Shown here piece after piece: positions 11,404-45,132 of a stretch of DNA of 64,000 nucleotides. The DNA is taken from assembly GCA_026874595.1 (NCBI GenBank), contig CM049322.1:45875340-45939339 (forward strand), in the 5' to 3' direction. This DNA is from Sipunculus nudus. Its lineage: Eukaryota > Annelida > Sipuncula > Golfingiida > Sipunculidae. The notes under the pieces were generated by a model. That model was not told the origin of the DNA and made no database searches. It saw only the letters and a program-made list of their open reading frames with translations. A program made the translations under genes and the position numbers. How positions within the stretch are numbered: position 1 is the stretch's first letter; every line of letters starts with the position of its first letter.

Positions 11404-14400
11404 ATGGCTGCAGCTAAAGACCCATATTTTGAGTATCGCGTGCCGTTAGAACCTGAATCTGCTCGAATGAATGAGCTACGAAAGAAATTCCAAAGACGAA
11501 GTTACAGATCCATGAGTCTGGAAGAGGCGAGAAGCTCCCACCTTCAGTATGCCATTGCTCTACGTGGACATTATGACTTCAATGGCTCAGTCACAGATCT
11601 CCGGGTACCTTCAGATCAACCTCAAGGTAACATAATAAATAAGTCGTTTCAATTTCTTTAAAAATGACACGGTCATTTCCTTGACAACAATATTTTTCGA
11701 GCAATGAAATGTTTTTATACTTTTTATTAATAAACAATGTGAGGCCAGGATTTTTTTTTTTGCTCAGATTGACCATTTCCTTAGAATTGAAATTATATAT
11801 TATAGAGAGTTAATTCCTTTTTTATTTAGCAATTTTCATTTTTTTATTCAAAATAATCATTACCATGGCAACAAATCTCCATATTCTTTTAAAACCCCCT
11901 GTTATCAATTTGACATGCACATATTATCTCTACAACTGTAATATATTATTCCTTCAGGGGGCCATTTTAAAAAAAAGCAACTTTTTTAGCTAATACAAGC
12001 TCGTCTCATGTAGTATTTTAGTCAACATGTCTTAATCAACCTGAAGAAACACTTTGAAATCACAATTTCAAACTTTGATACCATTATTAAACAAAATACT
12101 AAGTTACCAGTCATAAATATTCATGTACTTTGATACCCTTAAATTTTCATGAATATCTTCTAGTATGCGTTCTAGTTGCGATCGAGTCCCAAGGGGTAAT
12201 TCTTAAAAAAATAGCTTTAAGCTGAAGGTTTGTTACCAAATGAAGCAGGACAGCCCGCTAATACTTATATTACTGTATCTATCTTAGAGCGTTAAAGGTA
12301 TTTTCAAAACGTAAAGTACTTTCAGATATCAATTGAAAAAACACCTAAAGTAAAAAAGTGTAGAGGACATTATTTAAATGAAAATCAGTCGTCAAATAGT
12401 TATGATAATGGAGTTAATAAGGAGCATATGCACATCACAATACATTTGAAGCATTGGGCTATGTCAATTGACTGAAATTAGATCATCTCCACTTATTTAT
12501 TCACGAAATCTTCTTCGTAAGTTATGCTCACTCTCTATCGTTGACTTGTATTCAATGTCATGTGGCCGATATGAACTTAGTTAGTTTTGTGTTTAGTGTT
12601 TAGTTTTTTTAGTTTAGTTTAGTGTCAGTTTTGACCATTTTCTAGACGGAATACCTATTCGAGTGTATAAACCAGCCAACATCAGACCTGATCCCGCAAT
12701 CTTGGTCTACTTTCACGGGGATGGAATGGTTCTGGGCTCCATCGAGGCTTATGATGTTTGCTGTCAAATGCTAGCAGAGTAAGAGAATAAAGTTTTTATA
12801 CCTGCAATCCATGTTAATAGAACAAGCGTCGCCTTCCATTAAAATATGAATAGCTGACGTCTCTTTGTAATTTACTTTTTTAAGTAATAAAATAGCAAAC
12901 AGTTAATCTCTTTATATGTATATATTATGAAAACAGTTGTTTAGATGTATATATACATATATTTCTCTATATATATACATATCTTTATATATTTCAGCCG
13001 CTCCAAATGTATAGTTGTGATTGTTGAGCACCGTCTGGCACCGGAACATCCGTTACCGGCAGGGTTAGAAGACTGTGACAATGTTGCCGGATGGATACTA
13101 AAAAACAAAGCAAATATTGGTAATTTCTTATAAAGACTTATTAGCAGAAGAAACATTAATATTCAATTACAGTACTATTTTCCTATACTTAAACATATAC
13201 TGAACCTCAGATTTTTGCCTCAGACATTCGCTCTAATCAAGTTATGACTTCTGTATTATTCCTAACCCCGTGCATATAAAACCTTAAATCCAGAAAGCAT
13301 AATAATAACATATAATTGTTATCGTATGGGTACCTTTATCCTCATTTAGATGAAAGTGCCCCTAACAGGCCATTTACCTAATTGAATATATGCTTCACTA
13401 ACATAACCTGTGTTCACATAGATTGTGCCGCGATAAGTCCAAATACCCCATTTATTATACACTTATAGTTGTTAATATTTATTGTTATAGTTATAGCATA
13501 TTATTGAGATGTCCTTCGTTTGGCAGCAGAGATTTAAACATATTAACTCACATATAATAACAACACAAACACACATGTATAAATCTTATTTATTTGTTAT
13601 ACATGGACTTTACAAATAAAAACGTAAACTTTATTTATTTTACATGGATAGTACAAATAGTTATAATAATACAAGGCATTCTCCATGGCTCGGATGTTGG
13701 CGCTCGGTAGTAGTGGTCATAACCACGCCAGGAATCGAACCCGGGTTGCCAGCGGAGAGGGCCGAACGTTTTACCACACAGCTGTCAAGCTGTCACTTTA
13801 CAAATGAAGACGTTCGGTAGTATTTAAGGATGGAGGAAACCGGAGGACCTTTAAAATGCATAGACCTTGCATAGGTTACTTCAACCAACTCTGTAAGGCA
13901 CGCCCGGAATCGAACAAGAGTGCATTACATCTTTTACATTTTTTTTTATTCTGCCAATGCATTGGAGATAAAATTATTTCACTGCATTCTTTGACTATTT
14001 GACAGGCGGAACAATGGATAGCGTGGTGGGAGTAGGCGGTGATGGCTGGGGTGGAAAGGCAGCGGCATTGTGCTCTCACTATGTAAGAGGACTCGGGTTT
14101 CAGGTAAAATTACCTATGAAACAAATGAATTACTAGTTATTTTTGATATTACTATCTAAGCCAGATTAGATTTATAAAAAAATCTCTTTATGAAATGACA
14201 AGGCTTATAATGTTCATTGTTTTAATAGGTATTGGTATACCCAAGCACAGATGAAAGCCTATCATTTAAGTCTTACAAGGAGTATATTTCAAAGAAGCGA
14301 GGAGATGACGATGATTGGTAAGATCTGAAATAACCCAACCAAAGGATTTCGTAATGTAGGACTGTGACGATACCTGTGATGTCATTTTCTATCTGTCTGA

Positions 14401-16606
14401 ACCACGCGTTCGTGCACACGCACACACACTCAAAGCTCACAGAAATAACAGAGACCATCATATAATATAAACGTATCCTTAATGCGTTTACCCTAACTAA
14501 TATAAAAAATCCCTTCTCTAAACTGTAAAATCACGAGGTCTGGTAGGATGTCTGAAGCGCCCACACGATCCCCTGCATACTGGTGTCAGCCAGGTTCTGC
14601 GTTGAAATCGTGTGCTATCAGTCCTCAGTTAAACCACTCAGCCGTCGGCCACACTTGAGCGCCCTCTCTCGCCCTATTGACGAACCCCACTGTGGGGTCC
14701 TGCGGTGCTGATCTGTGTATCATCAGACACCTTCCAGGATCCAGGGATGTCCGCTAATCCGTCAGCTAGACAGTAAATTCACTCCGCGCTCTGCGCTCAT
14801 CCGGGATAGAAAGCTATCAGGAAGAAAAATACACACAAACTCATAAAGCATACGGTCTTCTCAAGTACCACAGCACGTAAGCTATGAGGGCCTACTGCCT
14901 AGAAAGGTTCCTTCTCCGGGAACGTTACGTCATACTCCTTGGCTCTAGCTAGTTTTAAACAGTTAGCAAGTTATATTAATTGGCATTATAAACAAGGTTT
15001 TCGATAGCTGGCATATTGATATCATGAAAACACCGTATTTACCTCAAACTTATTATCCATACATGGAGAGGTCATGCCGGATTTAACGACAGAACCTACT
15101 CAAACTGTCAACACTAAACATTTAAGCTGTCTACTGCTTTACAATACATTTCCATAAATATTATGCTTCTCAACACAACTTTACACTGATGATTACAAAT
15201 ACGGTTCTCCAAGTTAAATCCAGCTAAAAAATTAAAAATAAAGTCTTCAAAGAGTCCTGCTTTTAATAGTCTGCTTAATTATTCACAATCTGTGTTCAAA
15301 CTTGGAGTTAAGACAAACTATCTGGAATTTAATTTAAAACAAAGTGTCAAATCAGAACAACTTACCGGTCTTCAATCCCAACCTTTTTGGTGACCAGCTT
15401 CAGTTCATGTTGGTTGTAATGTGAGGAGTGGGTGTAGTTTAGCCTTAACTGTCCAATTATACCCGAGCCTGCTGAAAGGTACTGAATATTCATAATATGT
15501 AGGAATAATAATATGTTCGTGGACAATACGAAAATAGCTTAGTAGCCCTGTAAATATCGATTAACTTCGACACGCAAGAAATGCCATTTATACACAAGCG
15601 TTTCCCCTCGCCTCGGAACGGGAAATCTTTTGAACTTCTAAACTGAGTGTCTGTCTCAGTTGGTGAAACGTAGTCAGCGCTTACACGCGAATGCGGCCGA
15701 ATTACATTAAGCACTTACTCAACCAGAACGTCAAAACAAACGAGTGAACGTGAAATAGTGTCAGTGCACCAGTTTGTGAATGAAAATTCTGGACATAATT
15801 CACATTATAGTTTGTCGTGTATTCAAAATGTCTCAAAATTAGATATGTTAATCGCTGACTATCATTAAATGCTGGGAGGCTCCAGGTTAATATTACACTT
15901 TTACCTGATGTTTATATCAACGTGTCCATACAGATCGATAATTCTCATAAGGTGAGATGAGCTCGTAGCAGTGCATTTCCATGGCCCATTTGATTCTGTG
16001 TTAACGGAATAATATGTTGTTTTTCTTGAACAACTAAAAGTAAAATACGACTTCTTTTACATTTTTAAGAAAATGAAATAATATTTAATTGAAATTGCTT
16101 TTAGGTATAGGAATTCATCGCAAAAAGAACATGATTAAAAATTAAATATTGTGAATAATCAAAACATGTGACAAAAGGGCTGTTTGTATTTTCCATTATT
16201 TCTCTGTTACAGGTTTCATCGATATCATCGAGAGACCATAAATCTTCAGGACGAAAGGTTTAGTCCTTACCAGAAGCCTCGTTTTGACCATCTTCCGCCA
16301 TCCCTTTTCATCGTGGCTGAATGTCACATCCGTCGTGATGACAGTATTGGTGGGTCCATGGTAACATTTTATAATATAACAAGGCCATTTGAAATAATCA
16401 TTTGATAATGGTACATTTTTCTCCAATATATTAAACATCTTAAAAAAGGATGTTATTGTAAATAAAGAACCATGTCAAGGGCAAAGTAGGAGGACTGAAG
16501 GTAAAATGTAGGAAACTTGTTTTAGTAATATATATATTCCCTGTTCAGTCAGTTCTTTCGTTTTTTTTTTTCTCGTTTAGAATCGCAATATATAATACTC
16601 GTGTTC

Positions 16607-16640
<34 letters not shown>

Positions 16641-17046
16641 TCGGTGTGTGTGTGTGTGTATAGAAGGTAGAGTTACCTTCCGTTGTAAAATGCTCTATGG
16701 CCTACAGACTAGGCCAGAGCGGTATAACTCTGAAGAAAAACAACACTGTAAATTCACAACAGTCTGTTTTACGGGATGCGACCTGATCATCAGGTTAAGG
16801 TGGTTAAAATGAAGCTAACGTGTAGCCCAACCAATCCTTTTGTGCCCCCGAGGACAATAGGATCAGTGTCAGTCTATAACATGGCTTCCGTCCCCCAATC
16901 GCACAAAGCATCATCACGTAATCTCGTCAAGTCTCGGCTTTTCAAACCACGCCGTTAGCTTCATTCTTATCACCTTCACCTGATGATCGGGTCGCATCCC
17001 GTGAAACAGACTGTTGTGAATTTACCGTGTTGTTTTTCTTCAGAGT

Positions 17047-17138
<92 letters not shown>

Positions 17139-18117
17139 TAGCGTTCCTTCGCCAGGTGTTTTTTACTACCTGTATGCAACCGATTGTGGATGGTGATGGA
17201 CAGCTGATAATGGCAGATCTTTCATTTCCTTTGTAACAAAGTAATACTCGATAGACATATGCAGAAGGTTGCTTAGCTTTGTTGACTAATCACTACGTCT
17301 TCACTTATTATATGACAGTACAAGTCAAAATACACTATGATTCCGGCAGTCAGTCATTATTAGATAAACTGATAGTACAAATGCTTTATACTTAAGGCTA
17401 TGTAAATCATCGGGGTCAATAATATAGTGAAAAAGCGGGCTCTACAATAAGTACTGATACCACTCCCGTCTTATACCTTGTGACGTTTATTCTCCGATGA
17501 AATGCCCTCGGAGAAAAGTAACATACGGAAGGTTATCTTTAAATTAAACAGAGTACGAGAAGAAACTAAAAGATGCAGGGGTCCAGACAGAGTTGCTCCT
17601 CATGAAGGGGGCGCTACACGATTTCTTTCACATCCCAGGTAACACCATATAAAACCATTTGTACCAGAACGTACAAAAATACACATAAAGCAGTTAACCT
17701 TATTTGTCCTAGCAAGCAAAGTATGTATATTCTTCTTCAATACCTTTTTTTCTAGATATATACACTGACCGGCTTTTGTATACTCAGTATTCCAATCCTA
17801 AAGCATGTAGGAACCGGGAATTTTTTTTATATGTTAATGATCGTTTTATTATATAAAATACAACGTTTGAATTATCAAGTCTGAAAATTTGTAAATTAAT
17901 CCGGGAGATGAGGAAAACCTTCAAATGATCTAAAGTTTTTTAAACGGACTTTTAATAGACCTGGTATTATTGTGACTTGTCTAAGCCCAATCTATCAAAG
18001 CATTTTGCAAAGTGCAGTGTATATTATGTTTCTGTTGCAGGCTTCTATAAAAACCTCTGTGACAAGGCATACGGCGCAGTCGCTGATTTCATCAACAGAT
18101 TTGTGTACAACCCTTAG
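11404..18117 (+). CDS. Gene A: HSL/AADAC-like alpha/beta hydrolase lacking the catalytic serine (321 aa, 8 exons)
   Basis: Exons are 11404-11626, 12646-12778, 12998-13119, 14006-14103, 14229-14317, 16213-16349, 17552-17638 and 18041-18117. All introns are GT-AG, phases agree at every join, and no stop interrupts the frame. The start ATG sits in GCCATGG, a strong Kozak context. There is no signal peptide or N-terminal membrane anchor, unlike AADAC, so a soluble protein is expected. Family marks are [12 protein letters not shown] (residues 95-106; the oxyanion motif is HGDG at 98-101 in place of HGGG) and [17 protein letters not shown] in E3. The nucleophile elbow is [11 protein letters not shown], with Gly173 where Ser is needed. 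The Asp site is AECHIRRDD, with His260 in place of Asp, and the His site is ALHDFF, with His290 kept. Known family: serine hydrolases of small esters and amides. Inferred: not a hydrolase by the usual mechanism, perhaps a binding protein. TAG replaces CAG of gene C, so the protein is 8 residues shorter. Confidence 0.88.
13690..13800 (-). repeat. tRNA-like SINE head in intron 3 of gene A
   Basis: On the minus strand GGTTCGATTCC (complement of 13731-13741) is a perfect box B, inside AACCCGGGTTCGATTCCTGG. A weak box A, TGTGGTAAAACG, lies 25-30 bases before it. A decayed second box B (GTTCGATTCCGGGCG, complement of about 13902-13916) follows, and its counterparts appear in intron 3 of C (about 41415) and E (about 62485). 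This is a second tRNA-derived family, not a working tRNA gene: no acceptor stem closes. Confidence 0.5.
14340..15780. repeat. Intron-5 interspersed repeat, copy in gene A
   Basis: It starts near GGACTGTGACGATACCTG and runs through TCTGTCTGAACCACGCG, TTTAATGCGTTTACCC, GCCCACACGATCCCCTGCA and GGGAACGTTACGTCATAC to a GC-richer end with ACTCAACCAGAACG. Related copies lie in intron 5 of C (41870-43110) and E (from 62945), and after E7 of B (31380-31730) and D (57590-59140). One family therefore sits at two different places in the gene. The class is unknown; a solo LTR or a 5'-truncated retroelement is possible. Confidence 0.6.
16611..16660. repeat. (GT)n microsatellite in intron 6 of gene A
   Basis: An imperfect (TG)n run with one TCGG interruption. 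Confidence 0.95.
16723..17050. mobile_element. MITE-like element with ~95-bp terminal inverted repeats
   Basis: The left arm starts TATAACTCTGAAGAAAAACA and runs to GAAGCTAACG near 16816. The right arm is its near-exact complement, from CGTTAGCTTC near 16956 to CTTCAGAGTTATA at 17050. Differences between the arms are few (for example CTGATCATCAGGT against CCGATCATCAGGT). The ~140-bp centre has no coding capacity. TA or TATA at both ends could be the target-site duplication. The size and layout fit a non-autonomous DNA transposon; the superfamily cannot be told. Confidence 0.7.
17046..17136. repeat. (TA)n / (TATG)n tract after the MITE
   Basis: TA repeats with TATG interruptions begin at the right end of the MITE-like element. 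The matching place in C (44093-44162) is also (TA)n. Confidence 0.9.
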
Positions 18118-18166
18118 AACACCACAAGGGATGCACCCTAATTGAAATGTTGTATTTTAAGAGAAA

Positions 18167-18172
18167 AATAAA
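18167..18172 (+). terminator. Polyadenylation signal of gene A
   Basis: AATAAA lies 50 bp after the stop codon. Gene C has a 4-bp deletion at the same place (GAGAAAAAACATG) and no AATAAA nearby. A small hairpin follows at 18184-18202 (GTCGGAAA, loop AAG, TTTCCGAC). Confidence 0.65.
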
Positions 18173-18309
18173 ACATGGGCATGGTCGGAAAAAGTTTCCG
18201 ACTTAATAAGAATAGAGTTGCCTGTAACGTCGTATCAATCACATAACACGACTGGTAATAAAATCGATACATCCTGACTGGAGTACAAACTATATATAAA
18301 TACTACTTT

Positions 18310-21724: not shown

Positions 21725-22262
21725 CAGACTATGAAAAGAAACTGAAAGCTGCAGGGGTTTAGACAGCGTTAATCCTTTTACATCCAAAGTAATATTAAGT
21801 TAATAAACAAAAGGTAACCTAACGTATACGTTACACATGTAGCATTTAAACATTATTTCTAAGCAAGCACGTTGACGCATTCTTGCTTATTTATTTTTAT
21901 TTTTACAAAAAATACAATGACCATTTAGTTTAATATTCCACTCCTTTAAAGTTGGAGGGATGAGAATATATTTTTTTCTGATATGCGAAAGCGACGGGTA
22001 TCATTTCATCTTATAATACAGTTTTTTTAAATCATACCAGGAGATCATAAGAAAATTAAATTTGATCCCAAACAAAGGAATTTTAGAAACGAACATGTTA
22101 AAATGCCTAGTATCATGATGATTTTTGCAAGGCCAACAAAACAAACATAAAGTTAAGTGCAGTGCTTAGTATATTTTTGTTGCAGGCTTCTATTAACACC
22201 TCTGTGACAAGGCATACGGATCAGTCGCTTATTTCATCAACAGACTTTTGTGAAACATTTCT
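21725..22262 (+). pseudogene. Pseudogene M1: E7 and E8 remnant of the hydrolase family
   Basis: After an AACAG acceptor, 21730-21790 reads [11 protein letters not shown] and then TAG, and the rest of E7 is scrambled. E8 begins after TTGCAG near 22187 and reads FY followed by TAA, then a recognisable out-of-use remainder (HLCDKAYGSVAYFINR). E6 and everything before it are missing; M2 still has E6. The TAA in E8 is shared with M2, so this break predates the unit duplication. Confidence 0.8.
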
Positions 22263-25712: not shown

Positions 25713-27496
25713 ATGGCTCCAGATAAATACTCAACCTTTAATGGCGTGCCGTTACACCCTGAGTGTGCTCGAATGTATGAGTTACGACAGACGTTCCCCA
25801 GACCAGATTACAGATCCATGAGTCTGGAAGAGGCGAGAAGCTCACACCTTCAGTATGCCTTCGCTCTATGTGGACATTATGACTTCACTAGCTCAGTGAC
25901 AGATCTCCATGTTCCATCCGAAATACCAGAAGGTAACTTATTCATCATTACTTTCACTTAAATCATGCAATGACACACCACGTTTTTCATAATAAAGTAT
26001 TAGGCTAGTAAATTCAAAACATTTGTTTTGCGAAGATAAAATTTAAGAAACAAGTTACGGATGACGGTTTTGCTTCAACAAAGAAACCTAAATACTTTAC
26101 TTACGGTCACCTTAATATACCAGTCCCAGTGGTTGAGGTTCGAGTTCAAGTCTACCCCGTGGAGTCCGATGTTTCTTCAACACGATTTCAAGTCATAGTC
26201 AGAGTCAGATACAAATCTTCTTTTAAATAGAAATATAAGAATAATATTTGAGAAAATCATACAAATCCTATGTATAGGATACAAATCCTATTCTATAAGT
26301 GCACTTTACTCGAATGACTAATTACGTTTTACCCCTGAATTATAGGTAAAACTTGGTACGATTAGTATTATATTTAAAAATATTCTAATATTCATCCATA
26401 TGTTAAAAATATACAAACTGTGACACAGTTTTCCTTTTTAACACAATAAGTGCTCTGGGTGATTTCTAGGGTTCTTATTATGGAGTATTAGTGCAATTCC
26501 GAGTTCAAAACCCTGGAGTCCATGTCTAAATCAGAGTTCTTAAACAAGTGTACTCGAGTTCAGATTTGAGTCCAATTGCGGAGTCGAGTCCTATAAAACT
26601 GATTTACCATATATCTTTTGAAATTTTCTAACACAGACGGAGGAAACATAGATGATTAAGTAATTTGATCAACACAGTATGAAAAATATATTTTAATTGA
26701 AAGCGAGATAAAAGGATAAAAGGGCTGTTCCGAAGTAAACAAAATAATAATGAAATTATATTTGAACATCACTGTGCATTTCAAGGATTGTAAATAGATA
26801 TTCTGTCATAAGAAAACCAACGGAATAAGGGATGAAAAATAAACTGACCTTCACTCCACATTATAATTATATTTAGTAATGCGAGTTGAGTATTTGCAAT
26901 CATTCACAAATTCATATCATATTGACCCCTATAACTGTCAAGAGACGGCGCTAAACTAGAATTAGTTTCATTATTTTTTTGATTGAATATCCTATCCGAG
27001 TGTATAAACCAGAAAACGTTAGACCTGACCCAACCATCTTGTTCTACTTTCATTGGGATGGAATGGTTCTGGGCTCCATCGAAGCTTATGATGGCAGAGT
27101 AAGAAAACATCATTATTAAGTACTATGGAACAGGTATATATTTACGTCGCCGTTCTTATACCTGGTGTTAACGGAAGTTGGCTTGAGAGATATTTTATAA
27201 ATGAATAAAAGCAAAAAGACATACTTCATATAACCTATTTACGACTAATTTACATGAATTTATAACATTAAATAATTCAGTCGCTGCCAATGTATCATTG
27301 TGAGTGTAGATTACCGTCTGGCACCAGAGCATCCATTACCGGCGGGTTTAGAGGACTGTGAAAACGCTGCCCATTGGATACCTAAAAAACAAAACGGATA
27401 TTGGTATAATTATTCTGATAATTATATCATTGAAACGAAATATGTAAATACTTTATTATATTATTCTTTCATCTTAATATAAACATACTTGTTAAG

Positions 27497-27554
<58 letters not shown>

Positions 27555-28237
27555 TCATGATCTTAAGTCTGTAAGCTTTTGTAGTTATTTTTACCATGAT
27601 GGCTGAATATAGTAAAATTAAGGAAAAAGCAATTATCCTAATACATTTAATAAACGATTCCCAGGCGGATCAAAGGATAGCTTAGTCGGAGTAGGCGGGG
27701 ACGGCGGGGGAGGAAAGGCGGCTTCATTCTGCCCCCACTATGTACCGGGACTCGGGTTTCAGGCAAAAATGTCTCCCCTCAATGTGCCCCTGGGCATTTC
27801 AGAGAAACTTATTTGATACAAATGAACTATTTTTTCTTAAACTGTGTTTCGATCCAAACCCTTATCAGATTATGTTAAATTACCCTTAATATAAAACCAC
27901 GAATTAGCGTGCATTGTTTTTGTCGTAAAGGTTAAAATCACATTTTAAATTTTAATAAGTGGTTTTTAATGATGCATACTGCCATACAGTCAGTGGACAT
28001 GTTCTTATGAGGAAGTGAGTCTTTATATTTCATAGTGAGAGCCGTTGACGTGTATGATACATTAATGCGGTTTTTTAGAGAGCAACGTGCATAGATAAAA
28101 CGGATAACTGTGTTGTTTTATAGGTGTTGATATACCCCAGCACAGATGAACGTCTCTCCTTTCCCTTTTACAATGAATATAACAAACTGATGCGAGGAGA
28201 TGACGCGGAATGGTCAGTTCTGAAATCACCTAGTCAA

Positions 28238-28306
<69 letters not shown>

Positions 28307-31300
28307 TTCGTACTTAAAGTCATTTGTACTTCTCTGTTTCCGGAGTCAAAATACATTGTAAGTTTTCTTTGCATTTAAAATATTTCCCAATATTATTTTA
28401 AATCGCTGACTATAAAGTGTCGAAAGCCACTACATCTACTTTGCTCTGTCTGTTGGAGGATTATACAGCCTTGACGTATCGATCATGATGTATCGGAATC
28501 GTTAAAACCCATCACAACATGTTGAAATATTGAACCGGCATAATAGTTTGGATATTTATGAGCAAGCTATTAGTGTGGTTTCTATAAATATCAGATTAAT
28601 ACTGAATATATATATATAATATAATATAATATAGTATAATATAATATATTATATATACGTAATGTGCACCCCTGGGCCGTCACAATTTATTTTTTTTTAC
28701 AAATATTATTTACCCGATAAACCTCCCACCCTCATTCGCCTGATAAGTTCTGTTAGCTTCACGTCGTTTGATAGGCTGAAAATAACATATTTGTTTGACA
28801 TCGCAGCACATTCGCTGGGACCTAAAGAAGCGAATGGGCTCGAGTGATGATTGTATTATAGTATGAATTAACTTATCCCAGCTAGCTATATAATCAGTGT
28901 ATTCCTCATCATAGTACTGACATATTACATAGACACGGTACTTAAATAGCACATACACCTCTTATAATTACGAACAAGCCGACGTATTTTATTCTCAGGT
29001 GCCAACTGCCGATAATCACAGGACAGTTAATCCCAGAAAAGGATGTCAAGAACAAAAACATTTTATGAAATTATAAATTAAGTAATTCTCTTAATCAGGA
29101 TCTTTCACGATCTTTCACAAGATGCAAATGCAGTTTGACCAACTGTCCCAGTCTTTGCTGACCCGTAGAGTAGGACACGCTTTTTCATTGCTAACATATT
29201 TAAACAAGAAAGATTGAAAGACTTACGGTTTAGCTAATTATCTCCATCGGTTCAAAATCAAATAACAGGCTTGGTAACAGCAGAAGTTACCTAAATATGA
29301 GGTTTGTTGATGCGGTCAAAGAAAGGGGCAAGAGACCCTTATATTTATATCCTTCTATTTCTGTTTAACAATACAGTCTGATGTCAGCGGCTGTTATCTG
29401 ATGAAAAGCTGACACGGTTTAGTAGGGACAATGTTTATATGGCTTAGAGGGTGCTGGCAGGATTCAAACTTTATTGTTTTTAGTAAAAGCGGAATTTTTT
29501 CAATTAAGACAGTCAGGCCTCTCATATGCTGATGTTACACTCAAACTTTTCTCAAAGATATCTCTAAATAATCCGGGGGTAGGCTCTCATTTCGATCGGA
29601 GCACTTATTACGTCAATAACTGAATAAAAGTTCTTATTATTAGACTAAATAGCCAATCTATATGGTTTAGAGGTTTGATGTGTCATATTAGGAAAACTCA
29701 TATCAGTGATATGATCATAAATATAGATCTTATAATCGGGTTGTAGCTGAAAAAATACACTTTTGACTTCTTTGAGTCAAGTTGCAGAAGATTAAGGAGA
29801 ATAGCCAAAAAAAAAGACAATTTACTTACAAAATGTTTCAGTGAAGAGATACAAGATACAGAAGATAATAAAAGCTGTAGTTATTGGCAAAAGCAATAGA
29901 TAAGATCGGTTAGATGTTGGGTATGTGAAACATTGACAAAATTTGTTATATCTTCAAAGCAGTATTTCCATATACTTGTCTACATAACAGGTTTCGTCAA
30001 TTTCACTTGATTAGCGAAACGCCAACCAGTACCATAGAAAAATACACTACAGACCCGAGGTTTAGTGCTAACCAGCAGCCTTGTTTTGACCAACTTCCAC
30101 CAGCCCTCTTCATTGTGGCTGAATGTCATATTCTTCGCGACGACAGCTTTGGTAAGTTCCTGAGAAAATAAAATTTGAAATAGCTATTAGAAATATTTTA
30201 AGAATTTACAGTCGGTTTTTACCTATCCATTATATTTAACAAAATAATTTAACAAAATTGCCTAAAAAAAGAGGAGATTTATAAAAATATACTAGTGAAA
30301 CATTGAAAAACCATAGAAAAGTAAAAGACCCGTACATGATGATCATTACAAGGAAATCTGTATCTCCTTTTAGCTTTTGAGTCCTCTGAGCTATAGCGAT
30401 CACCATTTATCCGTCATTAGTCCGGTAGTCTGTCCGTGAAAAGTACAAAAAATCGTAACTGAAAGACCAAGAAAAAAAAACACGGGAATTTCCTTTGAAA
30501 CATGAAATTAGGTCATCCTAGGTATGGGGCTGCGGCAAGAATAATTATACGTTTTTTTTTATCCAAATAACTAATGCATTGATCGCCATGATTTTCTTGC
30601 ATGTATACTGATCATGACGTATTTCATCAGTTCCTATAGACTGCTGACACCTGTATTTTTCCGATTTAAACGCATTTTCCCTCTATATCTTTACCGGGTG
30701 ACATATAATCTTCTGACCTGACATCCACATTTTACACATTTTTTCTCTATTTTTATAACTTCAAATGATAATTTTTACGAAATGTTTAATGCTAGGTATC
30801 ATTCGCATATATATGTGTTGACACATACAATTTAAATGCTAGAGTCCAGGTTGCTTGCAACCTATTTCGGCTACTGATCGACAGCTTGTTCTGTCAGCTT
30901 ATTACATTCCTCTTCAACAAAGTATCTGTAAACAAACAAAAACAGAAAGAGGTCTTGTTTAGCTTTGCTGGATAACCTTAACCTGTAAACCTTTTCTATG
31001 TTATATGTCACTACAGTCTAAATATATTATGGTTTGGGCTGCCAGTTTACCGGTCAAGATAGAATGAACTAATGCCTTAAAGTAACTAATAACCTTGGCC
31101 AAAATGTAGTTATGAGAGGGTATGATAATAAATGGCAATACCACTCCCACGTGATACCCTGTTATGTATATTATCTTGTTATATATATCGGGAAAAAAAA
31201 TGTGGAACGTTGTCTTAACATGAAACAGAGTACGAGAAGAAACTAAAAGCTGCAGGGATCCCAACAGAGTTGGTCCTTATGAAGGGGGCTATGCACGATT

Positions 31301-31315
31301 TCTTTCACATCCCAG
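25713..31315 (+). pseudogene. Pseudogene B: B-type serine-less hydrolase copy
   Basis: Recognisable exons are E1 25713-25932, E2 about 26985-27098, E3 27281-27403, E4 27665-27762, E5 28124-28212, E6 29991-30151 and E7 31229-31315. E1 is open (MAPDKYSTFNGVPLHPECAR...). E2 has lost its acceptor AG, carries a one-base insertion that brings TGA into frame, and has a 17-bp deletion that removes most of DVCCQML. Its oxyanion motif is HWDG. E3 has a one-base insertion near its end. The E4 donor is GC, and E4 reads GVGGDGGGGKAAS, with Gly in place of the catalytic Ser. E6 is 161 nt (137 in A-type genes) and keeps AECHILRDD, with His at the Asp site. E7 keeps AMHDFFHIP. E8 is missing. It cannot encode a full protein. 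Confidence 0.85.
28238..28303. repeat. (AT)n microsatellite at the E5 donor side of B
   Basis: About 32 uninterrupted AT units starting 26 bp after E5. Confidence 0.95.
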
Positions 31316-32212: not shown

Positions 32213-32273
32213 AATCTTGAGTGACTCATCTGGGGATTCTTAAATTAAATATCAGGACAAAAAACGTACCAAT

Positions 32274-33122: not shown

Positions 33123-33710
33123 AGCAGGTACATTCATACTGGATTTTAAATAACCATTTGTTAATCATGTTATTGTTGTTGATATGAGAGTTTAGGATTG
33201 TTATATGTGTGCTGAATATCATAAAATAATAAAAATAATAAATGGATTATATACATATAATTAACATTCTTTTTAAAATATTCTGTATTAACAATAAAAT
33301 CCAATAGCCAATATAAAGAAGAACTACTCTTCATACCTTATAATTAACATCGGAGCCAGTCAACCATTTCGTGCCCCAAATTTTTTATCTATCTTTAAGA
33401 TTAGACATCTTATTTGAATTCCGAATAAGATTCCGGAATTCTGTCCTGATTGGACTTTTTTGGGAGTTACCTCGATTATCGCCAAGTGTCTTTTCATGGT
33501 TACACTAACATTTATGCTATTAATTGTGTTCACCATTGCAATCATACTACTTATGCATTCATTAATATCACAAAACATGGTTATTTATAGTGTAAGGACA
33601 AAAAGCCTGTCACAGGAGTTAAATGTAAAAAATAGTTCAAACTTATTAAGAGAACATAAAGACAAAGCAGATATGCAGAGGGGTTACTTTATCTTCATCA
33701 GTAATTATTT

Positions 33711-36700
33711 ATGTCTGGTTTCTCAGTTATTACCCTAAATGTAAGAGGGTTGCGAGGGTACAGGAAAAGGAGGAAGATACTCCAATGGCTACTTGATCAT
33801 GGTGGAGATAATAGTATTATTTTTTTACAAGAAGTCCACAGTTTAAAAAGTGATGAATATTCGTGGAGAAAGGAATGGCAGGGAGTTATTTATTATTCTC
33901 ATGGTACAAACCAGTCTAAAGGAGTTGCCATACTTGTCGGTAAATACTTAGACTGTACGGATATTATTGTGGAGAATGATAGGAGGGACGAAGTCTCTTC
34001 TTGAGAGCGAATTTAAATGGTCAACAATTCTTATTTATAAATACGTATGCACCAAACACTGAAAAGGGTCAAGTTGCATATTTAAAAGGCATTTCTGAAA
34101 AAATTACGAATTTTGATCTGGGTAATGATATTAAAATAATCTGGGGTGGAGATTTCAATTTTTGTTTCACTCGATCTGATACAGAAGGTGGAAATTATCA
34201 CCCGAAGGTTAAGTCTATTCAAACCATGAACAATATTATGCAGATGTATAGTTTAATAGACATTTGGAGGGTAAGGAATCCGACAAAGGAGAAGTTTACT
34301 TGGAGTAGTATGAGTCCCAGTATGAAAAGGAGGCTCGATTATATCTTTATATCAAGCGATTTAAACAGTCAAGTAAACCAAGTGGATATTTTTTCATCAA
34401 TATCAACTGATCACTGCGCTGTTAAATGTAATTTTTCTCCGTCCCATATGGTTAAACATGGTCCGTCCCACTGGAAGTTAAATGTATCGCTACTTGACGA
34501 TACAAATTATGTAATAGAACTACGACAGAATATCAAAAGATGGAAAAAAGAATATGAAAACATTGAAAACATTACAAAATGGTGGGAATATCTTAAATTT
34601 AAAATTAGAGAATTTTCCATCTGCTTCTCTAAAAGGAAACGCCAGAAAGAAAAACAGAAATTACACATACTGGAAAAACGATTGACGGAAGCTCAAAGTG
34701 TATCTTCCTTGCATGAATGTGAAATAATCCAACGGGAACTTGAGTCCTACTATGATAGAATAACAGATGGTCATATAATAAGATCCAGGGTTAATTGGTT
34801 TGAACATGGAGAACGTAACACGAAATATTTTTTAAACTTGGAAAAAAGAAATAAAACTAAATCCACAATACGAAAATTGTTATGTAATGAGAATAGAGAT
34901 CAGTGACCAAAAATTAATATTGGCTGAACTAAGAAGATTTTATGAAAATAAATATAAGAGTAATAACTGTCTATCTAAGGAAGAGTGTCATGAATTGTTA
35001 TCAAGTATGAACATCCCAAAATTAACTCCAGATGAGGCAGCCAGCTGCGAGGGTCCTGTCTCGCAAAACGAGATTTTACATGTTCTTAAGCAAATGAAAA
35101 ATAATAAATCTCCTGGAAACGATGGACTACCGAAAGAGTTCTACTTGAAATTCTTTGATTTGATCGGTAGTGATTTAGTTCTATGCTTAAATAAATGTTT
35201 TAAGGAAGGGAAACTCACTCCTTGTCAAAGGCAAGCAGTTGTGACCTTAATTGAAAAAACAGGTAAAGATAATCGCTTACTATCATCTTGGAGACATATA
35301 AGTTTGGTCAATGTAGACTGTAAAATAATAAGTAAAGTTATGGCGAACCGTATCAGAGCAGTTCTCCCTAATATAATAAATACGGATCAGACAGCCTTTG
35401 TGCCCGGTCGGAATATAAATGAAACAAATAGAATAATTAGTGATATTGTTAACTACTGTTTCCAAGAAAATAAGCCACATATACTGTTCGCAGTGGATTT
35501 TGCAGCTGCATTTGATTCGATTGGTCATAATTATTTGTTCAGTGTGTTAGAAAAGTTTGGCTTTGGAGAAAGTTTTATCGGATGGGTCAAACTCCTCCAC
35601 ACAGATATTCAAAGCTGTATTATAAATAACGGTTATACAACAGGTTACATAAAAGTGGCAAAGGGGACTAGACAAGGGGATCCTCTAGCGCCGTACCTGT
35701 TTGTATTAGCTATTGAAATATTGGCAATAATGGTACGCCAATCTGTTGATATAAAAGGAATTACTATTAACGGGAACGAGATAAAACAATGTATATTTGC
35801 GGATGATACCACGTATTTTCTAAAAGACATAAATTCCATGAATGTTTTATGTACTGTTTTGAAGAAATTCACGAGATTATCATCAGTCCAAGTGAATCAG
35901 GATAAATGTGAAGCCGCATGGATGGCAAATTATGATATTAATGAAACCTTAGACGGTTTCAAATGGGTTGACTTGACAACAGATGCATTGAAAATCCTTG
36001 GATTATGGTATACTTATGACAAGAGCTTATCGAACATGTTAAATTTCAATAGAGTGCTTGGAAAAATGAGAACACTTCTAAACATATGGAAACAACGTTC
36101 CTTGACTATATTTGGTAGAAATACGATTTTAAAGTCTTTAGGAATTTCAAAACTTACTTATATAACCAATGTTTTAGAACCACCGAAAGAATTCATCAAA
36201 TCAGTAAAAGACGTGATGACAGAATTTATATGGAACGGGAGAAAACCAAAAATAAAATATAATGTCATGATTAGTGGTTATGATAATGGGGGTATCAGGA
36301 TGCCTGATCTTGAAACGACCATAGAAACACAAAGATTAATGTGGATTAAGAAAATCATTTCTGAGAATACCGAAAAATACTGTGTAATACCTAACTTTTA
36401 TTTAAAAGCGTTTGGTGGCATAAGAAATATTAGTAGTAATACTGACCCTGTAGTATTCAGAGGAGGACTACCGGATTTTTATAGGCGCAGTTTTCACATA
36501 TGGCAGTCCTTTACCTCAGGAGAACCTGTTCTGGTTAAAACTGTTTTATCACAACAACTCTGGAATAATAAATATATTAAGATCGGAGGCAAGTCGGTTT
36601 ATTTTCGATATTTTGATGAACTGGGTATAAAATATATATATGATTTGTATAATACAAGTGGTGAAAAAAGGAAATTAAGTGAAATCATGTCGAAGGACCG

Positions 36701-37478
36701 TAGAAATTATTGTAACTTTTACATACACTGGATGGCATTGCGAAAAGCTATCCCCAAAAAATGGGTGAATATGATTGATGACCAAGGTATAACATCTAGG
36801 GATATGTTAGTACAAGAGCGTAATGTAATTGCTTTCAAAGATGTTATTTTAGATTTGAAGAACGTTTCATTCAGGAGTATATACGACAGAATTTTAACGA
36901 AGATAGTTTCAGTACCTACAAATGGAGAAAAACTGCTAAACAAATACGATTTTTTTAATTTGCAACAGGCTGTTGCTCTTGTTTACAGAACAACCTTGGA
37001 CATGTACCTCAGACAGTTTCAATTCAGATTTCTACATAATATACTTGCAGTAAATGTGAATCTATTTAAATGGAACATCGTTAATACAAAGAGGTGTTCT
37101 TATTGTTTTATTTCCAATGAATCTGTTCTTCACTTATTCTGTGAGTGTCATATATCAGTCACGTTTTATTTAAGAATAAAGTATTGGGCTGAAAAGGGAA
37201 AAATAACAATGCCAGTTCTAAGCCCAAAAATAATGTATATGGGTGTAGGTGAAGCTGAACACCAGAACATTATAAATTTAATTTTGTTGTTGTACAAATT
37301 CATTGTCTTTAGTAATAGATTAAACTTGGTGCCTCCATCATTGAACTTATTCATAAAAAAACTCATTAATATTGAGTGCCTGGAAAGTAAAGTCGCTCAA
37401 AAAGCTAATAAATATGTTTTACATGAGAAAAAATGGAAACCGATACTCCCGCTTATTGGGAAAAAGGGCTTTAACTAA
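33711..37478 (+). pseudogene. LINE ORF2 (endonuclease-reverse transcriptase) with two frameshifts
   Basis: Three frames join into one protein: 33711-about 33995, about 34003-34895 and about 34890-37478. The first part holds the APE-type endonuclease start (TLNVRG, FLQEVHS). The second holds NTYAPN, WGGDFNF, RLDYIFIS and TDHCAV, which supply the usual catalytic N, E, Y, D, N, D and H. The third holds the reverse transcriptase: AFVPGRNI, VDFAAAFDSI (motif A), KGTRQGDPLAPYLF (motif B) and FADDTTYF (motif C, catalytic Asp pair kept). Near the C terminus is a CCHC finger of the L1 kind (CSYCFISNESVLHLFC). The shifts lie near 33995 and 34895 and cancel each other. All catalytic residues survive, so the element stopped being autonomous recently, or the shifts are sequence errors. 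Confidence 0.85.
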
Positions 37479-37796: not shown

Positions 37797-37859
<63 letters not shown>

Positions 37860-37862
<3 letters not shown>

Positions 37863-38675: not shown

Positions 38676-38685
38676 GTCACGTGAC
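38676..38685 (+). promoter_or_regulatory. GTCACGTGAC palindrome upstream of gene C
   Basis: Perfect decamer, 275 bp before the start codon, directly after TCATATAAAG. Same arrangement as A and E. Confidence 0.5.
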
Positions 38686-38861
38686 TAGCAAGGGGTCGTC
38701 GTACTACCGTATATCACTTGTTATCTGTTCAACAAAAGTGTTTTACGAACCAAAAAAGCGAGGAACCTATTCATCATTAACATACATAGACAGTTGATTG
38801 TACAAGTGATAAGCACTTATTATATTATATAAATTACATCAGCAAGCAATGGGCACGCAAC

Positions 38862-38869
38862 TGACGTCA
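38862..38869 (+). promoter_or_regulatory. TGACGTCA palindrome upstream of gene C
   Basis: Perfect CRE-type octamer, 91 bp before the ATG. In gene A the same place reads TGAAGTTA. Confidence 0.4.
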
Positions 38870-38960
38870 GGTGACAGTATATCTGTGTAATTTTGTAGGA
38901 CTGTGTATTCTTATTCGATATCCAGTTGTCGAATGTTTCCTCCACAAAGACCGTATCGCC

Positions 38961-40527
38961 ATGGCTGCAGAGGAAGACTTATATTTTAAGTATAGCGTGC
39001 CGGTTGACCCTGAATCTGCTCGAATGAATAAGTTACGGCAGATATTCCCCAGACGAAGTTACAGATCCATGAGTCTGGAAGAGGCGAGAACCTCACACCT
39101 TCAGTATGCCATCGCTTTACGTGGACATAATGACTTCAATGGCTCAGTCACAGATCTCCGAGTACCTTCAGATCAACCTCATGGTAACATAATAAATAAG
39201 TCGTTTCATTTTTTTTTTAAATGACACACGGAATAAACATTTCATCGGTCATTTCCTTGACAACAATATTTTTCGAACAATAAATGTTTTTATATTTTTT
39301 ATTGATAAACACTGGGATGCCAAGATTTTTTTTGCTCAGAATGACACTTTCCTTAGAATTAAAATAATAAATTATAGAGAGATAATTCCTTTTTTTATTT
39401 AGCAATTTTGATTCTTTTTATTCAAAATAATAATTACTATGGCTACAAATCTCTATATTCTTTCAGAATCCTTTTGTTATCAATTGGCATGCACATTTTA
39501 CCTCTACAACTGTTATGTATTATTCCTTCAAGGGGCCATTTTTTTAAAATAACAACTTTTCTTTAGCTAATACCAGCTCGTCTCATGTAGAATTTTAGTC
39601 AACATGTCTTAATCAACCTGAAGAAACTCTTTGAAATCACATTTTCAAACTTTGATACCCTCATTATACAACACACTTAGTTACCAGCCTTCAATAATCA
39701 TGTACTTTGATACCCTCATTCAAAACACACAAAGTTACCGGTCGTAAATATTCATGACTATCTTCTAATCAGTGGCGATCGAGTCCCAAGAGGTAGCTTA
39801 AAAAAAGAGCTTTAAGCTGATGGTTTGATACCAAAGGAAGCAGAACAGACCCCAAATACTTATATAACTGTATCTATCTATCAGCATTAAAGGTATTTTC
39901 GAAACGTAAAGTACTTTCAGATATCAAATGTAAAAACACCTAATGATATGGTTAACAAAGTGAAGAGGACATTATCTAAATAAAAGTCAGTCGTCAAATA
40001 GTCGTGATAATGGAGTTGATAAGGAGCAAATGCACATTACAATACATTTCAAGGATAGGGCTATGTTCATTAGGGAAGAAAATTTACTGAAATGAGATCA
40101 TCTTCATTTATTTATTTAGGTAATCCTCTTATCATTTAATAATGATCACTCTCTATCGTTCACTTGTATCCAATGTCATGAGGCCGAGATGAACGTATGC
40201 TACTTTTGTCCATTTTCTAGACGGAATTCCTATTCGTGTGTATAAACCAGCCAACGTGAGACCTGACCCAGCCATCTTGGTCTACTTTCATGGGGATGGA
40301 ATGGTTCTGGGCTCCATGGAGGCTTATGATGTTTGCTGTCAAATGCTGGCAGAGTAAGAAAATAGTGTTTATACCTGAAATCTGTGTTGACAAAACATGT
40401 TTGTTTAAGCGTCGCCTTCCCTTAAAATTCGATTACCATGAGCTGACGTCTCTTTGTTATACACTTTACGTAAGAAAATAGCAAAAGTTAATTTCTTTAT
40501 ATATATTATGAAAACCGTTGTTTTTAG

Positions 40528-40599
<72 letters not shown>

Positions 40600-40845
40600 A
40601 AATATTTCAGCCGCTCCACTTGTATAGTTGTGATTGTTGAGCACCGTCTGGCACCAGAGCATCCGTTACCGGCAGGGTTCAAGGACTGTGACAATGTTGC
40701 CCTATGGATACTAAGAAACAAAACAAATATTGGTATTTTCTAAAAAAAACATATTAGCTAAAGAAACATTAATATTCAATTACAGTACTATTTTTGCTAT
40801 CCATTAATATAAATATATACGTACACAAAAACACACACATATATA

Positions 40846-40899
<54 letters not shown>

Positions 40900-43800
40900 T
40901 GAACCTCAGATTTTAGCCTCATTCGCTCTAATTAATTATGACTTCTGAATTTTTCCTAACCCCGTGTATATAAAACTTTAAATCCAGAAAGCATAATAAT
41001 AACATATAATTGTTATCGCATGTGTACCTTTATCCTCATTCAGATAACAGTGCCCCTAACAGGCCATTTGCCTAATATAAATATTTGCTTTACTAACATA
41101 AACTGTTTTTACATAGATTGTGCTCGCCATAAGCCCAAACACACCATTAATTATACACTTATAGTTGTTTGTATTTATTGTTATAGTTATACCACATTAT
41201 TGAAATGTCCTTAGCAGCAGACATTAACACATATAAACTCACATATAATAACAAACAAAAACACACATAAATGAAGCTTATTTATTTGTTATACATGGAC
41301 TTTACAAATATAAAAAGTATAAGACGTTCGGTATTCAGGGATGGAGGAAAGCGGAAGACCCTTAAAATATACAGACCCTGCACGGGTTACTTCAAGCCAC
41401 TCTGAAAGTCACACCTGGAATCAAACAAGAGTGCTTTGCATCTTTTACATGTTTCTTTTTATTCTGTCATTGCATCGGAGATAACATTATTTCACTGCAT
41501 TCTTTGACTAATGATAGGCGGGACAATGAATAGCGTGGTGGGAGTAGGTGGTGACGGCTGGGGCGGAAAGGCAGCCGCATTGTGCCCTCACTATGTACCA
41601 GGACTCGGGTTTCAGGTAAAATAACCTATGAAACAAATGATTTACTAGTTATTTTTGATATTACTATCTAAGCCAGATCAGATCTGTAAAAATCTCTTCG
41701 AGAAGTGACAAAGCTTATAATGTTCATCGTTTAATAGGTGTTGGTATACCCAAGCACAGATGAACGCCTCTCATTTCCGTCTCACGAGGAGTATAGTTCA
41801 AAGCAGCGAGGGGATGACGCTGCTTGGTAAGATCTGAAATAACCCAACCAAAGCATATCGTAAGGTAGGACTGTGACGATACCTGCGATGTCGTATTCTA
41901 TCAGTCTGAATCACGAGTTCGTGCACACGCATACAAACACTCAAAGCTCACAGTTATGACGGAGACCAGCCATATAAGATAAACGTATCTTTAATGCGTT
42001 TACCCTAACTAATACAAAAAAATCCCTTCTCTAAACTGTAAAATCACGAGGTCTGGTAGGATGTCTGAAGCGCCCACACGATCCCCTGCATACTGGTGTT
42101 AGCCAGGTCTTCAGCGTTGGAATCGAGCGCTATCAGTCGTCAGTTATCCCTCTCAGCCGTCGGCCACACTTGAACGCCCTCTCTCGCCCTATTGACGAAC
42201 CCTACTTCGACTGTGCGGACCTGCGGTGTTGGTCTGTGTATCATCAGACACCTTTCAGGATCCAGGGATGTCCGCTAATCCGTCAGCTGGACAGTAAATT
42301 CACTCTGCGCTCTTCGCTTATCCGGGAAAGAAAGCTATCAGGAAGAAAAAATACACACAAAAACTCATAAAGCATACGGTCTTCTCAAGTACCACAGCAT
42401 GTATGCCATGAGGGCCTACTGCTTAGAAAGGTCAATACTCCGGGAACGTTACGTCATACCCCTTGCCTTTTGCCCGTTGTAAACAGTTTGCAAGTCATAT
42501 TAATTGGCATTATTAACAAGATTTTCGATACCTCGCATATTGATATCATAAAAACACCGTATTTACCTCAAACTTATTATCCATGCATGGAGAGCAAATG
42601 CCGGATTTAACGACAGCCCCTACTCAAATTGTCCACACTAAACATTTAAGCTTTACAATACATTACCATAAATATTCAACACAACTTTACACTGGTGATT
42701 ACAAATACGATTCTCCAAATTGAATCCAGCTGAAAATTTAAAAATAAAGTCTTCAAAGAGCCCTGCTTACAGTTCTCTGAGTATTCACAATCTGTGTTCA
42801 GAAGAACAACTTACCGGTCTTCAACCCAACCTTTTCGGTGACCTGCTTTGGTTCATGTTGGTTGTAATGGGAGAAGTGGGCGTGGTTCAGCCTTTACTGT
42901 CCAATTATACCTGAACCTGCGGATAGGTACTGAATATTCATAATATGTAGGAATAATAATATGGTCGTGGACAATACGAGAACTGCTAGCTAGCCCTGTG
43001 AATATTGATTAACTTCGACAGGCAAGAAATGCCATTTATACACTAGCCGTTTCCCCTCGCCTCTGAACGGGAAATCTTTTGAACTACTAAACTGAGTGTA
43101 TGGTTTCAGTTGATGAAATAATATATTATTTTTCTTGAAAAACTAAAAGCCAAATACGACTTTTTTTACATTTTAAAGAAAATGAAGTAATATTTTTTTT
43201 AAATTGAAATGTCATTTAGATATAGGAGTTCATCTCAGAAAAGAACATGATTAAAAATTAAATATTGTGAATATTCAAAACATAAAAAGGCTATTGGTAT
43301 TTTCCATTATTTCTCTGTCACAGGTTTCATCGACATCATCGAGAGACCATCAATCATGAAGACAAAAGGTTTAGTCCTTATCAGCAGCCTCGTTTTGACC
43401 ATCTTCCGCCAGCCCTTTTCATCGTGGCTGAATGTCATATCCGTCGTGATGACAGTATTGGTGGGTCCATGGTAACATTTTAAATAAATTTAACAAGGCC
43501 ATTTGAAATAATAATTTGATAATGGTACATTTTTTTTTTGTAATTTATTAAATATCTTGAAAAAAGGATGTAATTGTGAATATAAAACCATGTCAAGAGC
43601 AAAGTAGGAGGACTGAAGGTAAAATGTATGAAATTCGTTTTAGTAAAATTGTTGTTTTAATATTTATATATAATACAAAGATATATTACCAGGATGCTCA
43701 ATTAGCATAGTAAACTGATAAGCAATAGGGTCCTGGAAAAAGCAACATATCAGTAGTATACATATGATATAAAATACACATATACTATGAAAATACACAA

Positions 43801-44092
43801 TATATTGTTCATATCAAACAGCAACAAACCTCTTTACCCTGTTATGTTCCAGTATCGCACGTGTAGCCCGACCAGTTCTATTGTGCCCCCGAGGACAATA
43901 TGATCAGTCTCAGTCTTTCACATACCCCCCCCCCCCAAAATTGCACAAAGCATCATCTCGTAATCTCATAAAGTCTCGGCTGTTCAAACCACGCCGTTAG
44001 CTTCATTCTAACCATATTCACCTGATGATCGGGTCGGATCCCGTGAAACAGACTGTTGTGAATTTAGAGTGTTGTTTTTCATCAGATTTTAT

Positions 44093-44152
<60 letters not shown>

Positions 44153-45132
44153 TATATATATAACCGATTGTGGATGGTATCGGACAGCTTATAATGTCAG
44201 ATTTTTCATTTCCCTTGTAACAAAGTAACTGTCAATAGACATATGCAGAAGGTTGCTGAGCTTTGTTGACTAATCACTACTTCTTCACTTATTATATGAC
44301 AGTACAGGCCAAAATTCACTATGATTCAGGCAGTCTGTCATTATTAGATAAACTGATAGTACAAATGCATCACATTTAAGGCTATGTAAATCATCGGGGT
44401 CAATAATAGAGTAAAAAGCGGACTCTACAATAAATAATGATACCACTCCCGTGTGATACCTTATTATGTTTATTCTCCGATGAAATGCACTCGGAGAAAA
44501 GAAACATACGGAAGGTTATCTTTAAATTAAACAGAGTACGAGAAGAAACTAAAAGCTGCAGGGGTCCAGACAGAGTTGGTCCTAATGAAGGGGGCGCTGC
44601 ACGATTTCTTTCACATCCCAGGTAACACCATATAAACCATTTGTACCAGAACGTACAAAAATACCATTAAGCAGTAAACCTCATTTGTCCTACCAAGCAA
44701 AGTATGTATATTCTTCTTCAATACCTTTTTTTTCTAGATATATACACTGACCGGCTTTTGGATACTCAGTATTCAAATCCTAAAGCATGTAGGAACCGAG
44801 ATTTTTTTTCATTCTTTTATATGTTAATGACCGTTTAATTTAATAAAATACAACGTTTGAATTATTAAGTCTGAAAATTTGTAAATTATGCCGGGAGACG
44901 ATGAGAAACTTCAAATGATCTAAAGTTTTTAAAACGGACTTTTTATAGACCTGGTATTATTGTGACTTACCTAAGCCCAATCCATCAAAGCATTGCACAA
45001 AGTGCAGTGTATATTATGTTTTCTGTTGCAGGCTTCTATAAAAACCTCTGTGACAAGGCATACGGCGCAGTCGCTGATTTCATCAACAGATTTGTGTACA
45101 ACCCTCAGAACAACACAAGGGATCCATCCTAA
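38961..45132 (+). CDS. Gene C: HSL/AADAC-like alpha/beta hydrolase lacking the catalytic serine (329 aa, 8 exons)
   Basis: Exons are 38961-39183, 40221-40353, 40611-40732, 41518-41615, 41738-41826, 43324-43460, 44535-44621 and 45032-45132. The first seven have the same length as in gene A. All introns are GT-AG and the frame is open. The start sits in GCCATGG. The protein has no leader or membrane segment. Family marks are [12 protein letters not shown] (oxyanion HGDG at 98-101), [32 protein letters not shown] (Gly173 at the nucleophile position), AECHIRRDD (His260 at the Asp position) and ALHDFFHIP (His290 kept). Compared with A, E8 reads through CAG and adds NNTRDPS-type residues before TAA. 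The AATAAA of A is deleted here. It is the best candidate for a working gene of the array: both promoter palindromes are perfect. The substrate or ligand is unknown. Confidence 0.88.
40527..40594. repeat. (AC)n/(AT)n tract in intron 2 of gene C
   Basis: It ends 16 bp before the E3 acceptor. A and E have shorter TA-rich tracts at the same place. Confidence 0.9.
40856..40900. repeat. (AT)n microsatellite in intron 3 of gene C
   Basis: About 21 AT units. E has one at 61927-61965; A lacks it. Confidence 0.95.
41870..43110. repeat. Intron-5 interspersed repeat, copy in gene C
   Basis: Same blocks and order as at 14340-15780 (GGACTGTGACGATACCTG, GCCCACACGATCCCCTGCA, GGGAACGTTACGTCATAC). It ends near 43110, about 200 bp shorter than in A at the GC-richer end. 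Confidence 0.6.
43855..44090. mobile_element. MITE-like element, copy in gene C lacking the left arm
   Basis: The centre (TTGTGCCCCCGAGGACAATA) and the full right arm (CGTTAGCTTCATTC to GTTGTTTTTCATCAG) match 16821-17045. The left inverted arm is absent, and the centre gained a run of about twelve C. Both copies sit in intron 6, so the insertion predates duplication and the arm was lost later. Confidence 0.6.
44093..44162. repeat. (TA)n microsatellite in intron 6 of gene C
   Basis: A long TA run with one AATA break, at the place of the tract at 17046-17136 in gene A. Confidence 0.95.

Follow-up and report, generated by a model that had tools for sequence, protein, structure and literature searches.

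Can genes descended from an esterase lose most of the catalytic machinery of their family and yet be amplified and preserved, and what would their products then do? These questions are raised by a stretch of 64,000 nucleotides from Sipunculus nudus, referred to below as the window (contig CM049322.1; G000:C17:45875340-45939339, in a genome of 1.43 Gb), which carries part of a tandem array of genes of the HSL family. The intact genes of this array lack the catalytic serine, the catalytic aspartate and one glycine of the oxyanion loop, form a single clade beside a canonical paralogue of the same genome, have been amplified and are under purifying selection. An array so depleted of catalytic residues, with its genes intact, suggests that a new job replaced ester cutting. 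It would be a non-hydrolytic clade of HSL fold, derived from a canonical esterase, whose members most likely bind small molecules without cleaving them, a reading to which we give about an even chance of being right.

Structure and altered residues of genes A and C

Two complete genes, both on the plus strand, are present in the window. Gene A (11404-18117) encodes 321 amino acids and gene C (38961-45132) encodes 329 amino acids; each has eight exons, GT-AG introns throughout and no internal stop, and the protein of gene C is 87% identical to that of gene A. In the numbering of these genes, HGDG occupies residues 98-101, Gly173 stands at the position of the nucleophile and His260 at that of the triad acid, and His290 alone is retained from the triad. 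The initial annotation had described A and C as complete, correctly spliced and open, with exactly these residues and with an oxyanion motif changed from HGGG to HGDG; this description proved accurate, and the HGDG change is present in all ten intact copies of the array. The exons are as follows:

11404..11626, plus strand: gene A exon 1, with the ATG
12646..12778, plus strand: gene A exon 2, HGDG loop
12998..13119, plus strand: gene A exon 3, EHRLAPEHP
14006..14103, plus strand: gene A exon 4, GGDGWGG replacing GGDSAGG
14229..14317, plus strand: gene A exon 5
16213..16349, plus strand: gene A exon 6, AECH replacing AECD
17552..17638, plus strand: gene A exon 7, LHDFF, His290 retained
18041..18117, plus strand: gene A exon 8 and stop
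38961..39183, plus strand: gene C exon 1
40221..40353, plus strand: gene C exon 2, HGDG
40611..40732, plus strand: gene C exon 3
41518..41615, plus strand: gene C exon 4, GGDGWGG
41738..41826, plus strand: gene C exon 5
43324..43460, plus strand: gene C exon 6, AECH
44535..44621, plus strand: gene C exon 7, LHDFF
45032..45132, plus strand: gene C exon 8 and stop

Residue 174, in exon 4, is Trp (TGG) in A and C and Gly (GGG) in the copies F-M described below, a single-base difference; Trp174 may be a later change within the A/C lineage.

Extent of the array, intact copies and relics

The array was delimited by tblastn with the exons of gene A over 204 kb (the window, the 20 kb before it and the 120 kb after it), hits that were on the opposite strand, off register, or short with E of about 2 or more being discounted as chance. 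It extends to window coordinate 170595, about 107 kb beyond the end of the window, where eight further intact copies (F-M) and a partial copy limited to exons 4-8 (Jx) were found. The tandem family of copies 0 and A-E initially recognized is thus real, although its extent had been understated. The whole array contains ten intact copies (A, C and F-M) with the same exons, phases and splice sites, which rules out a chance motif. A horizontally acquired or contaminant gene is also ruled out, since the copies have introns and sit on a 61-Mb contig.

The losses are general in the array. All 15 copies of exon 4 (E4) lack the serine, the motif being GDGWGG in A and C, GDGGGG in B, D, F-M and Jx, GDGWGR in copy 0 and GDDWRG in copy E. 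No triad aspartate is found in the 14 stretches resembling exon 6 (E6), which read AECH in 13 cases and AEYL in a relic at 51711. Among the 13 copies of exon 2 (E2) that cover the oxyanion loop, 11 carry HGDG, one HWDG (B) and one HGNG (D); copy 0 has no coverage of the loop. HGDG and His290 are present together in each of the ten intact copies.

Copies F-M span window coordinates 75102-170595. They carry the motifs GDGGGG, AECH and HDFF, successive starts are separated by 11.6-12.5 kb (17.2 kb between J and K, where Jx intervenes), and their coding sequences differ from one another by 5 to 32 bases. This even spacing and near-identity point to a recent tandem amplification or to gene conversion, and the copy number of the array may differ between individuals.

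The remaining copies within the window are relics or decayed copies:

7520..9211, plus strand: relic of copy 0, with parts of E2, E3, E4 (GDGWGR) and E8; no convincing E1, E5, E6 or E7
22186..22262, plus strand: exon 8 relic between A and B
25713..31315, plus strand: copy B, decayed, E4 GDGGGG
51711..52465, plus strand: E6 and E8 relic between C and D
55244..57532, plus strand: copy D, decayed, E4 GDGGGG, loop HGNG
61075..64000, plus strand: copy E, decayed, E4 GDDWRG

Copy B has a truncated E2, one additional base in E3, an unrecognizable start of E6 and no E8 past E7. Copy D retains a weak remnant of E1, a TG acceptor at E4 and a truncated E5, and lacks E6 as well as any E8 past E7. Copy E has a truncated E1, a stop in E5 and, past the end of the window, an E6 with a frame-shifting gap; its E7 and E8 were not found in a search that reached coordinate 69000. 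The absence of the serine from E4 of copies 0, B, D and E, already pointed out in the initial annotation, is confirmed, but these four are decayed copies and not genes.

A LINE (long interspersed nuclear element)-like retrotransposon lies between B and C (32244-37478), and its frames, which are separate from the array genes, match endonuclease, reverse transcriptase and zf-RVT. Scans of the window for Rfam families and tRNAs gave no matches.

Membership in the HSL family

By descent, the array proteins belong to the HSL family. Indeed, the protein of gene A matches the Pfam family Abhydrolase_3 (PF07859) with 140.9 bits for a cut-off of 25, over positions 1-209 of a 210-position profile, and among solved structures its closest matches are HSL-type esterases, such as Est8 (4ypv; E=9.7e-39). 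With the bacterial and archaeal esterases of this family (group IV), including Est8 and the LipP1 family NF058653, the array protein shares a long alignment, but it scores 193 bits against NF058653, under the cut-off of 350, and unlike these enzymes it lacks the serine, the aspartate and one oxyanion glycine. Of the features of an HSL-type serine hydrolase mechanism, the array thus retains the triad histidine, and the serine, the aspartate and HGGG are missing.

Animal alpha/beta-hydrolase proteins without a catalytic serine are known among the neuroligin-type relatives of cholinesterases, which belong to the carboxylesterase type B family. The array belongs to a different family from neuroligin, since gene A reaches only 22.7 bits against COesterase, below the cut-off of 27, and exceeds the Abhydrolase_3 cut-off by far. 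In prokaryote genomes, 59 pattern matches yielded a single relative, in Natronolimnohabitans innermongolicus (38% identity in the best segment), and none of 26 pattern matches in viral contigs was a relative. No description of a serine-less HSL family in molluscs or other invertebrates was present among the matches listed from the open-licence literature.

Paralogues in the same genome and timing of the losses

A genome-wide search with the protein of copy G, in which 122 of 190 candidates were scored and which therefore gives a lower bound, found relatives on at least C15, C13, C2 and C8; the matches on C4 and C9 were weak. The closest among the candidates scored is a gene on C15 (G000:C15:16003160-16012670), 62% identical to A and 65% to G. 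This gene has the same eight exons and phases as the array genes, the FDHLPP stretch and the His before xFF. It differs by its motifs, HGGG, GDSAGG, AECDPLRDD and HAFF, where the array has HGDG, GDGWGG or GDGGGG, AECH and HDFF, and it is predicted from its sequence to be a canonical HSL-type esterase. The relative on C13 is canonical in the part read (exons 2-8; exon 1 was not found), and a gene at 70.98 Mb on C8 carries GDSAGG and AECD. C8 also harbours a second cluster of relatives (G000:C8:60436000-60560000), the five members read having GSSAGG in place of GDSAGG, AECD, and the Ser, Asp and His retained. The array also departs from C15 in the stretch after EY (C15 residues 214-226, VDGPLLPKQLIQW), where its sequence has been rewritten and contains two residues fewer; this stretch may be close to the pocket or lid.

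In a tree of 217 columns from which the catalytic columns were excluded, the six proteins representing the array (A, C, F, G, J and M) form one clade (support 100) beside C15 (support 91), deeper nodes being weak (34 and 36). Because C15 has the canonical residues and the array is a single clade beside it, the losses of Ser, Asp and Gly are placed on the array stem, after the split from C15. The earlier proposal that the loss is ancestral and predates the duplications is thereby upheld, the copies sharing the losses and the C15 and C13 relatives retaining the triad.

The kinship with C15 also bears on the proposal that the array proteins could regulate an active paralogue, for example the C15 esterase, by joining it as inactive partners in mixed dimers. 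HSL-family proteins are known to dimerize via their C-terminal part, and exon 7 is among the best-kept stretches, G and C15 sharing 26 of its 30 residues, in addition to the overall identity given above. The array and C15 are on different chromosomes, which argues the other way, and such a regulatory role seems quite unlikely.

A relative on C2 (L033; G000:C2:22470500-22476499), putatively a whole gene, retains HGGG, AECD and HSFF, but in its exon 1745-1828, whose edges are AG and GT, an in-frame deletion of 15 nucleotides removes five residues of the nucleophile motif. As this gene falls outside the group of C15 and the array (support 91), it lost its nucleophile independently of the array.

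Conserved columns altered in the array

Five array proteins (A, C, F, G and J) were compared with eight serine-bearing relatives (seven from the same genome and one archaeal), using columns in which at least seven of the eight have a letter. Forty-five columns are invariant in the relatives. Seven of them vary in at least one array protein and five are changed in all five: G102, S175, A176, D265 and P241 (C15 numbering). The columns changed in all include four of the seven catalytic and oxyanion columns (H100, G102, G103, S175, A176, D265 and H295, a set chosen knowing the finding) vs one of the 38 others (p=0.001); if any change is counted, the figures are 4/7 and 3/38 (p=0.007). Furthermore, the residue that follows the catalytic His, which is A, G, I or S in the relatives, is Asp (Asp291) in all ten intact copies. 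The stretches that frame the pocket (RLAPEHP, FDHLPP, the GG elbow and HxFF) are retained.

It is very improbable that hydrolysis persists, either with another nucleophile or with a water molecule activated by His290. His290 and the glycine-rich elbow are indeed kept, but the usual mechanism depends on the serine, the aspartate and the oxyanion loop, and all of these have been altered together.

Selective constraint or decay

Selection was estimated with a branch model written for this analysis and applied, with the tree held fixed, to ten sequences (A, C, F, G, H, J, K, M, C15 and C13; I and L were excluded). The dN/dS ratio (omega) of the array is 0.43, and omega=1 is rejected (likelihood-ratio statistic 33.7, p=6e-9). 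This also holds for the A/C part (omega 0.48, p=0.001) and the F-M part (0.36, p=0.0003) taken alone. The branches of C13 and C15 have an omega of 0.037, a rough value as these branches are long. On the array stem, omega was 19.8 when three classes were fitted and reached the bound of 20 with four, omega=1 not being rejected (p=0.80); the stem omega is not estimable, and we make no claim of positive selection there.

The comparison of A and C proposed in the initial annotation gives a pairwise dN/dS of 0.37 (NG86) to 0.46 (YN00), with a dS of 0.15-0.18, which indicates purifying selection on the intact genes. Of the two observations that the annotation had named as jointly contrary to its reading, only one applies: the genome does contain GDSAGG relatives, but neutral drift is not what the array shows. 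At the codons of His98, Asp172, Gly173, His260 and Asp291, the ten intact copies show silent differences (about one change each) and no replacement. The altered site is thus conserved in its turn, under a constraint that is loose relative to that on the C13 and C15 branches. By open frame, splice sites and an omega below 1, the intact copies have the features of functional genes.

The array could alternatively be a functionless family decaying under relaxed selection, whose intact copies are survivors of recent duplication. The decay of copies 0, B, D and E and an omega far above that of C13 and C15 go in this direction, and F-M are so alike that their intactness may reflect youth. This explanation is distinctly improbable given the rejection of omega=1 in each part of the array and the lack of lesions in A and C despite their dS: in 2000 runs of a neutral simulation with 73 changes, the sequence stayed stop-free in 5.0% of cases for A and 6.4% for C.

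Precedents in plants

The plant gibberellin receptor GID1 has an N-terminal lid that closes on the ligand and recruits a partner. The array profile matches its chain GID1A (9o4j_B) with E=8.6e-16, and both are former hydrolases of the same fold family without a full triad. GID1, which became a receptor, is described as having Ile or Val at the position of the lost triad His, whereas its other canonical residues mostly persist (PMC10873640). The array shows the reverse pattern, Ser and Asp being lost and His kept. The parallel with GID1 drawn in the initial annotation thus rests on real homology, but the likeness is general only, opposite residues having been lost.

The same source describes plant carboxylesterase (CXE)-like [4+2] cyclases (TS, CorS and CS), in which the triad His was lost, HGGG became HGAG and Ser-(Tyr/Phe)-Asp stands in place of the triad, and a cyclase-like protein, MtHID2, with Gly in place of the Ser (PMC10873640). 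The array shares with them the loss of a triad residue, a change of the third HGGG residue, duplications and a decayed copy, but it displays HGDG and Gly173-His290-His260, with neither HGAG nor Tyr or Phe for the triad His.

These cyclases lend substance to the main rival of ligand binding, namely a new non-hydrolytic chemistry (cyclase, lyase, dehydratase or metal-assisted) carried out by His290, His260, Asp100 and Asp291. This is a tentative possibility of fairly low probability. None of the ten intact copies lacks His260, Asp100 or Asp291, in line with such a role; on the other side, the Gly-to-Ala loop change in AncHID5 had no effect on its cyclase activity (PMC10873640).

A proposed binding function for the array proteins

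In the favoured reading, that of small-molecule binding, the array descends from a serine esterase with a canonical site, similar to the C15 gene. Along the array stem, Ser changed to Gly, Asp to His and the third oxyanion residue from HGGG to HGDG, and with them the Ala behind the nucleophile was replaced and the residue after the catalytic His became Asp. Hydrolysis by Ser-His-Asp should be gone because Ser, Asp and the oxyanion Gly, which act in the known HSL mechanism, have been replaced; we thus infer a loss of hydrolysis in the array proteins. Selection has kept the fold, pocket frame and gene layout, and the genes were amplified in tandem, eight copies being recent. The inherited pocket would then bind a small molecule uncleaved, and the protein would serve as receptor, carrier or scavenger, in a dose that tracks copy number. 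The residue changes, their ancestry, the constraint and the amplification are established by the sequences, whereas ligand binding itself is a guess, ranked by precedent.

Several points weigh against this reading. The constraint is loose, the omega of the array being about 12 times the rough value of 0.037 for the C13 and C15 branches, and four sibling copies within the window have decayed. Among the copies F-M, H and I have a dN/dS of 1.7 (NG86), on seven differences only; other high NG86 pairs are J-M (0.78 on 15 differences) and H-J (0.68 on 17). The codon of Asp100 is identical throughout the ten copies, so the codon comparison is uninformative for this residue. Without S175, D265 and G102, the residues that drew attention, the column test falls to 1/4 vs 1/38 (p=0.18). 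Finally, the tests reported here favour binding no more than new chemistry.

Significance

In this array, nature offers a clean example of an esterase lineage deprived of most of its catalytic machinery, yet amplified and preserved. Its C15 sister gene, with the same exons and the full triad, is in the same genome, so the replacement of hydrolysis is open to direct comparison. More specifically, Asp100, His260, His290 and Asp291 could form a rebuilt, perhaps metal-binding, centre for a reaction new to the HSL family. This is unlikely, but if it were true, the loss on C2 would make the departure from ester hydrolysis recurrent in the esterase family of Sipunculus nudus. In plants, a hormone receptor and alkaloid cyclases arose within this fold family through the loss of triad residues (PMC10873640). 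An animal counterpart, if true, would show the same evolutionary route outside plants.

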